DNA from: Thermodesulfobacteriota bacterium
GTDB taxonomy: Bacteria > Desulfobacterota_D > UBA1144 > Nemesobacterales > CSP1-2
Reading direction: 5' to 3'
Length of the DNA stretch: 41,374 nt
NCBI GenBank assembly: GCA_036397855.1
Contig: DASWID010000181.1
Coordinates: 1 to 41,374, forward strand
Shown: piece by piece, positions 20,768-22,443 of the stretch
Numbering within the stretch: position 1 is the first letter of the stretch
How the letters are laid out: each line of letters starts with the position of its first letter
Made by a program: the position numbers and the translations under genes
Notes under the pieces: model-generated
Seen by the model: only the letters and a program-made list of their open reading frames with translations
The model's database searches: none
Told to the model about the DNA's origin: nothing

Positions 20768-21295
20768 ATGTATTCCGAACAGAGGCAAATGCTCATGAGT
20801 GTTATCGACGAGGTTCTAAGCGCTAATAGGGCGTATGGCAAGAAATTTAAGCTTGGCAAGCTGCCTATTCCGCCATCTCGTATGCTCGCTGTGGTTGCGT
20901 GTATGGATGCTAGGCTAACAATCGAGGAGATGCTAGGATTAAAGACAGGAGAGGCCCATATAATTCGTAATGCAGGAGGGATAGTATCTGAAGATGCCAT
21001 AAGATCATTAATAATTTCTCATCATCTCCTTGGTACAAGAGAAATTATGATTATAAATCATACTGATTGCGGAATGCTTACATTTACCGATGAAAAACTT
21101 AGAAAAAATCTTTTAAAGAAAACCCGTACCGCAACCGTAGCGCCCCTTTTGTTCCACTCTTTCAGCGATATTTGGGAGAATGTACGACAGCAGATTCAAA
21201 AGGTGAAATCTCATCCATGGGTGCCCAAAGATATCCCTGTTAGGGGATTCGTTTATGATGTCAAGACCGGTAAGCTTGACGAGGTTTTTGCTTAA
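20768..21295 (+). CDS. Beta-class carbonic anhydrase
   Basis: 175 residues, a short beta-carbonic anhydrase similar in layout to mycobacterial Rv1284. Zinc ligands are Cys45 and Asp47 in CMDARL, with Arg49 completing the Asp-Arg dyad, and His98 and Cys101 in HTDCGM. IIRNAGGIV near residue 65 is the other family motif. The C-terminal VRGFVYDVKTGKLDEV is also typical. It interconverts CO2 and bicarbonate in the cytoplasm. The gene is isolated between a repeat region and the convergent nadD-rsfS pair. No good ribosome-binding site precedes the ATG. Confidence 0.9.
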   Translation: MYSEQRQMLMSVIDEVLSANRAYGKKFKLGKLPIPPSRMLAVVACMDARLTIEEMLGLKTGEAHIIRNAGGIVSEDAIRSLIISHHLLGTREIMIINHTDCGMLTFTDEKLRKNLLKKTRTATVAPLLFHSFSDIWENVRQQIQKVKSHPWVPKDIPVRGFVYDVKTGKLDEVFA

Positions 21296-21376: not shown

Positions 21377-21766
21377 CTAGGCAAATTCTTCCAAGTCTTC
21401 TGCAGGGATTGGGAATTCCTCAATAAACGGAATCCCTATACGAGGGGAGTCGATCCACAGTCCTTCTAAATCGTAAAATTTCCTTAAGGGTTCATAGAAC
21501 ACATGGACTACCACATCCAGAGCATCAATTAGGACCCATTTGCCTTCTGTGTATCCTTCGACACCAATAACCCTTTGTCTGAGCTCTTTTAGTTTTCTTT
21601 CAATATGGTCAACAATCGTTCTTACCCCTCTATCCGAGTTGGCACTGCAGATGACAAAATAATCTGTAATGTTACTAAGCGCCTTCATCTCGAGCAGTCT
21701 TATATCTTGCGCCTTTTTTTCCCAGGCGGCGCGTGCAATGACTAAAGCCTTTTCTTTGGATTCTAT
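21377..21766 (-). CDS. rsfS: Ribosome silencing factor RsfS, apparently with a non-standard ATA start
   Basis: The recognised part, KALSNITDYFVICSANSDRG and on to GYTEGKWVLIDALDVVVHVF, is RsfS (Iojap/RsfA). The protein binds ribosomal protein uL14 and blocks subunit joining during starvation. An ATG at 21688 would give only 103 residues and lose the conserved N-terminal helix. That helix is encoded upstream in the same frame (ESKEKALVIARAAWEKKAQD and onward), back to an ATA at 21766. Before the ATA is TAA, and no ATG, GTG or TTG lies between. AAGGAGG at 21774-21780 lies 7 bases upstream of the ATA. From the ATA the protein is 129 residues, a normal length. The ATA overlaps the nadD stop (ATAG). 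See findings. Confidence 0.85.
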   Translation of the reverse strand: MESKEKALVIARAAWEKKAQDIRLLEMKALSNITDYFVICSANSDRGVRTIVDHIERKLKELRQRVIGVEGYTEGKWVLIDALDVVVHVFYEPLRKFYDLEGLWIDSPRIGIPFIEEFPIPAEDLEEFA

Positions 21767-22443
21767 TTAGCGGCCTCCTTCTTGTACATACTGTGCTCTA
21801 GTATATAGGCTTCGACACTCGACGGGACAAGATATTTTATGGATTTGAATTTTCTGATTAGTTCTCGTATCTTTGTTGACGATATTTCCAATCCGTCTAT
21901 TTTAACGAGACTCAAAATCTTGGAGTTTTTATTTATGTAAAGAGTCAAATTGTTATACCGCTTATAATATCGAAAATCATCCCTAATTTCAAGTGGAAGC
22001 ATTTCGGGGAAATCAAAACCAAATCCAGGCCTCTCTATTACGGCAAAATTCGACGCCCTGAATATTTTCTTATAATCCTTCCAGCTATCTATTTCAGAAA
22101 ATAGATCGGATCCTGCTATAAAGTATAAGTCAAACGGTGGAAATGCATCGGAAAAATATCGCAGCGTATCGATAGTATAGGACTTTCCACCTCGTTTTAT
22201 TTCTATATCCGAAATTCCAAAAAAATTGTTATCATTCAATGCGAGCTCAAGCATCTTCAGACGGTCATGAGGTGAAGCCATCCCTGGAGTGGTCTTATGA
22301 GGGGGCACGGAGGTTGGAACGAAATAGATTTTCTCAAGATCCAATATTTCTCTGATCTCTTCGGCGGCCCTCAGGTGACCAAAATGGATAGGATCGAATG
22401 TTCCACCGAAGAGCCCTACCTTTGTGAGTCGAGTTTCATTCAT
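21763..22443 (-). CDS. nadD: Nicotinate-nucleotide adenylyltransferase NadD
   Basis: 226 residues. VGLFGGTFDPIHFGHLRAAEE is the nucleotidyltransferase motif with the HxGH-type signature. FVPTSVPPHKT follows, and ISSTKIRELIRK is the C-terminal ISSTxIR motif that binds ATP phosphates. It adenylates nicotinate mononucleotide in NAD synthesis. Pairing with rsfS is a common bacterial arrangement. AAGGA directly abuts the ATG, an unusually short spacing. The stop TAG is created by the same bases as the rsfS ATA codon. Confidence 0.95.
   Translation of the reverse strand: MNETRLTKVGLFGGTFDPIHFGHLRAAEEIREILDLEKIYFVPTSVPPHKTTPGMASPHDRLKMLELALNDNNFFGISDIEIKRGGKSYTIDTLRYFSDAFPPFDLYFIAGSDLFSEIDSWKDYKKIFRASNFAVIERPGFGFDFPEMLPLEIRDDFRYYKRYNNLTLYINKNSKILSLVKIDGLEISSTKIRELIRKFKSIKYLVPSSVEAYILEHSMYKKEAAK

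Follow-up and report, generated by a model that had tools for sequence, protein, structure and literature searches.

The window, a 41,374-nucleotide stretch that forms one contig of a MAG of 195 contigs, carries on its minus strand the overlapping genes nadD and rsfS, with the following features.

21763-22443, minus strand: nadD (NF000840, 206.5 bits), opening with an ATG at 22443 and closing with a TAG at 21763-21765 that is shared with the rsfS start as ATAG
21774-21780, minus strand: Shine-Dalgarno (SD) sequence AAGGAGG of rsfS, duplex dG -11.9 kcal/mol
21767-21769, minus strand: in-frame TAA that abuts the ATA and closes the rsfS frame, read from the sequence and found also in relatives
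21764-21766, minus strand: ATA, the near-certain start codon of rsfS, read from the sequence; the aligned codon 1 is ATA in 40 of 43 genomes of the order
21377-21766, minus strand: rsfS coding sequence (ribosomal silencing factor, which shuts down idle ribosomes; 129 aa, ATA to TAG), supported by Pfam PF02410, TIGR00090 and alignment to 6sj6/6sj5
21686-21688, minus strand: internal ATG at rsfS codon 27, the likely pick of a gene caller, and unsupported (dG -0.4, no SD)

The rsfS product matches PF02410 over 21455-21739 (E 5e-31, 108.4 bits against a cut-off of 21.6) and TIGR00090 over residues 9-104 (111.6 bits, cut-off 56.9), and judged by these curated models, whose cut-offs it exceeds, it is a member of the RsfS/YbeB/Iojap family. 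Residues 4-109 of the solved S. aureus RsfS (6sj6) pair with residues 4-109 of the window protein at an offset of zero, so that the ATA falls on residue 1 of RsfS. On sequence evidence, the codons 5' of the internal ATG are genuine RsfS protein; across the order, codons 2-26 show the third-position variation of coding sequence (mean entropies by position 0.79, 0.35 and 1.57). The first-pass annotation of this DNA had placed the conserved N-terminus upstream of ATG 21688, back to the ATA at 21766, and the Pfam, TIGR00090 and 6sj6 results bear this out.

At the start of the gene the minus strand reads AAGGAGG CCGC TAA ATA GAA TCC AAA GAA. The strong SD, GAAGGAGGC, lies 6-7 nt 5' of the ATA (spacing 6 in the duplex computation), and random 20-mers from the window, which served as background, place the 1% tail at -9.3 kcal/mol. 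The sole ATG, GTG or TTG in the N-terminal part of rsfS is ATG 21688, whose duplex energy of -0.4 kcal/mol compares with -11.9 for the ATA. The same annotation had remarked on the lack of any usual start from this ATG back to the ATA, on the TAA directly 5' and on an AAGGAGG without counterpart at the internal ATG, all of which the sequence and the duplex energies confirm. Translation of rsfS almost certainly begins at the ATA. A start at ATG 21688, which has no SD and is not conserved, was rejected, and mRNA structure around the rsfS start showed nothing out of the ordinary (z 0.39). Gene callers restricted to ATG, GTG and TTG trim 26 residues off RsfS in the window genome, or lose the start elsewhere. 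Converging on rsfS from the plus strand is an ORF at 20768-21295 that appears beta-carbonic-anhydrase-like, named by eye from its translation.

Forty-three genomes of the window's order (G000-G042) were sampled for conservation. Besides the 40 with ATA at the aligned first codon of rsfS, two of family f7 have ATC and one has ATT. In 39 of the 43 (37 with ATA, 2 with ATC), the stretch from the upstream in-frame stop to codon 1 is free of ATG, GTG and TTG. The exceptions carry a TTG immediately 5' of the ATA (G035 and G041), an ATG at -6 (G009) or an ATG at -9 (G042), and in G042 the SD is still positioned for the ATA despite that ATG. In G035 (L127) and G041 (L121), the start has apparently shifted one codon 5' to the TTG (cTTGATAG), with the nadD TGA overlapping; these two genomes have likely lost the ATA start. 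Six genomes with ATA (G017, G020, G025, G029, G031 and G039) lack a usual start in the first 45 codons of rsfS as well, and the TAA-ATA junction recurs in G004, G007, G029, G031 and G033. Under the identical test, nadD has a usual start in all 43 genomes of the order, and over all sets this control gave a canonical start in 167 of 169. Two Syntrophaceae nadD genes (L034 and L035) are without ATG, GTG or TTG near the expected start, L035 having an ATA after AAGGGGAGGATTGAGAA.

At the third base of rsfS codon 1 the entropy is 0.43 bit; the median of 122 rsfS columns is 1.63, which puts silent sites in this gene near saturation. ATA makes up only 45% of the isoleucine codons in the bodies of rsfS and nadD, and the chance of obtaining the observed set of first codons from each genome's own isoleucine usage is 10^-13.7, phylogeny being ignored. 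A strong SD at near-constant spacing accompanies rsfS throughout the order, with a median dG of -9.5 vs -2.8 for nadD. Like an infC-type start, rsfS thus combines the lack of a usual full-length start (in the window and 36 other ATA genomes), a conserved near-cognate codon and a strong SD. The weak start is probably a selected brake and not a sequencing error. The earlier proposal that the ATA is the start of rsfS and plausibly keeps RsfS low is supported.

Were position 21764 a G, nadD would run on through TGG AAT CCA AAG AAA AGG CTT TAG, gaining 7 codons, exactly as had been noted, and the first-pass annotation had seen in this single base both the removal of a normal start and the making of the nadD stop. 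As a description of the window this holds; as an explanation it fails. A nadD stop (TAG or TAA at +1) overlaps the rsfS ATA in the window and in 31 of the order's 38 ATA genomes, but in the other 7 the stop lies elsewhere (-14 in four, otherwise -5, -3 or +8), and ATA conservation therefore does not stem from the shared base. In 9 further ATA genomes codon 2 of rsfS starts with A, and an ATG would therefore still give nadD a TGA stop. In two other lineages, nadD ends 17-435 nt away from unusual rsfS starts. The reading frame of rsfS relative to nadD is not constant among relatives (0, 1 and 2), which excludes a conserved programmed frameshift producing a NadD-RsfS fusion.

In the first of these lineages, the class of GWB2_55_19 (G064; L312-L339), 22 of the 29 genomes that could be read appear to start rsfS with CTG, preceded by SDs of the AAGGAG type; infC in this class has an ATA start in the genomes checked. 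In the second, the class of Omnitrophota bin17 (G075), rsfS has ATA in 12 of 30 genomes (L341, L343-L346, L348, L351, L359-L361, L363 and L370) and ATT in 1 of 30. Since other members of that class have usual starts, the trait seems to have been switched often there. One Omnitrophota relative, L369, may start rsfS with ACG (ataggaggtcaagcaaACGACT), no usual, ATH or CTG start having been found. Where nadD was located, its stop lies 5' of rsfS by 17-188 nt in the G064 class and by 87-435 nt in the Omnitrophota class; overlap with nadD is thus not required. Usual rsfS starts prevail in the comparison groups: 12 of 12 in the sister family f8, 12 of 12 in the phylum sample G060 and 28 of 30 in the Desulfobacterota sample. 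An RsfS tree (122 columns, 206 rows) contains at least 18 switches between usual and unusual starts and is too weak for counting origins; recurrence was judged by group membership instead.

A second gene of the window genome shares the codon. Its infC, the gene of initiation factor IF3, has an ATA start after GGAGGGAGGTAGAGCAAAA, with the TAG of the upstream frame overlapping as ATAG. In this infC (L249, G000:C24, start at about 41,900 of the record), the ATA follows GGAGGGAGGT, and with its ATAG overlap the junction has the layout of nadD-rsfS. All through the order, in f8 and in almost every one of the outgroup Deltaproteobacteria sampled, infC opens with ATA, which makes infC-AUA class-wide or older and rsfS-AUA a trait of the order. 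For specificity within the genome, conserved non-overlapping ORFs in 556 kb of the window genome (about 18%) were screened against the nearly complete G010. Among 216 conserved genes, only rsfS clearly has a conserved N-terminus many codons 5' of every usual start, the other cases listed being apparently rRNA shadows or frames that run on a little by chance. Genes whose N-termini vary escape this screen; infC is one of them and was checked separately. The infC codon, invisible from the window alone, points to IF3.

RsfS binds uL14 on the 50S subunit and blocks subunit joining (PMC3400551), while IF3, acting on the 30S subunit, keeps the subunits from joining too early (PMC11497404). In vitro, IF3 selects against start codons whose third base pairs weakly (PMC10158994), and precedents for starts that it disfavours are the autocontrolled AUU of infC and the AUU of pcnB (PMC1780047, PMC9410913). 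The AUA starts of infC and ccpN in S. aureus belong to a set of conserved AUA/AUU starts with extended SDs that yield about 10% of AUG (PMC13009471). On balance, we favour the reading that a selected, IF3-disfavoured start holds RsfS at a low level and links it to IF3. The data show that rsfS has this conserved start codon with a strong SD and no alternative start, that infC shares the codon and that G010 has one ordinary initiator tRNA; the IF3 control, the low level and the physiological sense are inferred. The AUA of rsfS would be decoded by the ordinary CAU initiator tRNA through a third-base A:C mismatch, and the unusually strong SD would recruit ribosomes to it and keep the gate usable. 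As IF3 turns away starts with a third-base mismatch, selection would retain the weak one. RsfS output would then be low, falling when IF3 is plentiful and rising when 30S subunits exceed IF3, and rsfS would stand under the same gate as infC.

Alternative accounts of the codon itself fare poorly. The source is a draft MAG of 195 contigs, and an assembly or mutation artefact, with a true G and an ATG-started rsfS, had been raised by the first-pass annotation together with the question of ATG or ATA in close relatives. ATA is kept in those relatives, including G003, G004 and G006, and recurs in some 40 species genomes (40 of 43) from several families, each assembled on its own; conservation refutes an assembly error, and the chance of any such artefact is practically nil. 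It is also highly improbable, if slightly less so, that AUA means methionine in this lineage, through an altered code or a special initiator tRNA, and is hence a normal start. ATA at both infC and rsfS would suit that idea, but nadD has a usual start throughout the order and ATA is common among internal isoleucine codons. TilS is encoded in the window genome, so that a loss of AUA-isoleucine decoding was not encountered. Of the three CAT tRNAs in the near-complete relative G010, one is an ordinary initiator, with a C1:A72 mismatch and three G-C pairs in the anticodon stem. TilS and this single CAU initiator largely refute recoding and a special initiator tRNA; because of them, AUA stays isoleucine internally, and at the start it is most probably the CAU initiator that reads AUA, via a third-base mismatch.

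Two other accounts accept the AUA start and differ on what it does. Under termination-reinitiation, ribosomes ending nadD at the ATAG would restart on the AUA with the help of the SD, which would make a poor codon good enough and tie RsfS to NadD synthesis. The stop-start overlap in 31 of the order's 38 ATA genomes, the strong intragenic SD, which is often important for reinitiation (PMC6728339), and the overlap of the infC ATA with an upstream stop in the window genome are in keeping with this. However, ATA is retained where the nadD stop is displaced, though still close; the CTG and ATA starts of the two other lineages stand 17-435 nt from it; ATGA, equally good for coupling, is possible in 9 ATA genomes; and in f8, rsfS adjoins or overlaps nadD yet begins with ATG or GTG. 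Reinitiation as the explanation therefore seems unlikely to us, and to a similar degree we doubt a static throttle, in which too much RsfS is harmful and the weak start does no more than lower its output, with no feedback from IF3. In S. aureus reporters, AUA and AUU starts reach about 10% of the AUG level (PMC13009471); this, the block of subunit joining by RsfS (PMC3400551) and the weak UUG of E. coli rsfS would all fit a throttle. A pure throttle has no need of the very strong SD that is kept, and ATA, CTG and ATC are near-cognates beyond the GTG/TTG set, as at infC. Against the IF3-gated reading, the frequent overlap with the nadD stop means that coupling could contribute; f8 and a few order members use ATG, GTG or TTG, so that the weak start is dispensable; and the UUG of E. 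coli rsfS, weak as it is, is among the usual starts.

If rsfS is gated by IF3 as proposed, IF3 on the 30S subunit and RsfS on the 50S subunit, both anti-association factors, would be made from near-cognate starts. IF3-disfavoured starts kept by selection are known in very few bacterial genes: infC, pcnB and the recent cases of ccpN and cvfC1. That another subunit-joining factor has such a weak start, order-wide and again in further lineages, suggests that the availability of IF3 may control ribosome silencing as well as IF3's own synthesis. A broader proposal, to which we give slightly less than an even chance, is that rsfS and infC form an IF3-sensing gene group in many uncultured bacteria, the IF3 level setting both supplies, and that this arrangement has arisen several times (AUA, CUG, AUC).

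Conserved near-cognate starts are of a known kind. In the open literature searched, which took in few subscription papers, no report was found that describes an AUA or CUG start at rsfS, that places rsfS in this kind or that notes its recurrence with different codons. The closest likeness is to the AUU or AUA of infC: a conserved near-cognate start with a third-base mismatch and a strong SD, at the gene of an anti-association factor, with ATA in the same genome. The two differ in that IF3 control of rsfS is a proposal, and in that ATA is order-wide at rsfS but class-wide at infC. The AUU of pcnB in E. coli and, in Staphylococcus, the AUA of ccpN and the AUU of cvfC1 are likewise conserved, inefficient starts that limit output, with extended SDs in the S. 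aureus cases; these are known from E. coli or staphylococci, whereas rsfS recurs in three lineages with ATA, CTG and ATC. E. coli rsfS (ybeB) starts with UUG (PMC10917681), a minor start codon at the same gene, but one of the three usual bacterial starts and a first-base change, unlike the third-base mismatch of the window's AUA. With the ATGA pairs of termination-reinitiation the nadD-rsfS junction shares the 4-nt stop-start overlap; it differs from them in being ATAG or ATAA, and in a weak start that persists without the overlap.
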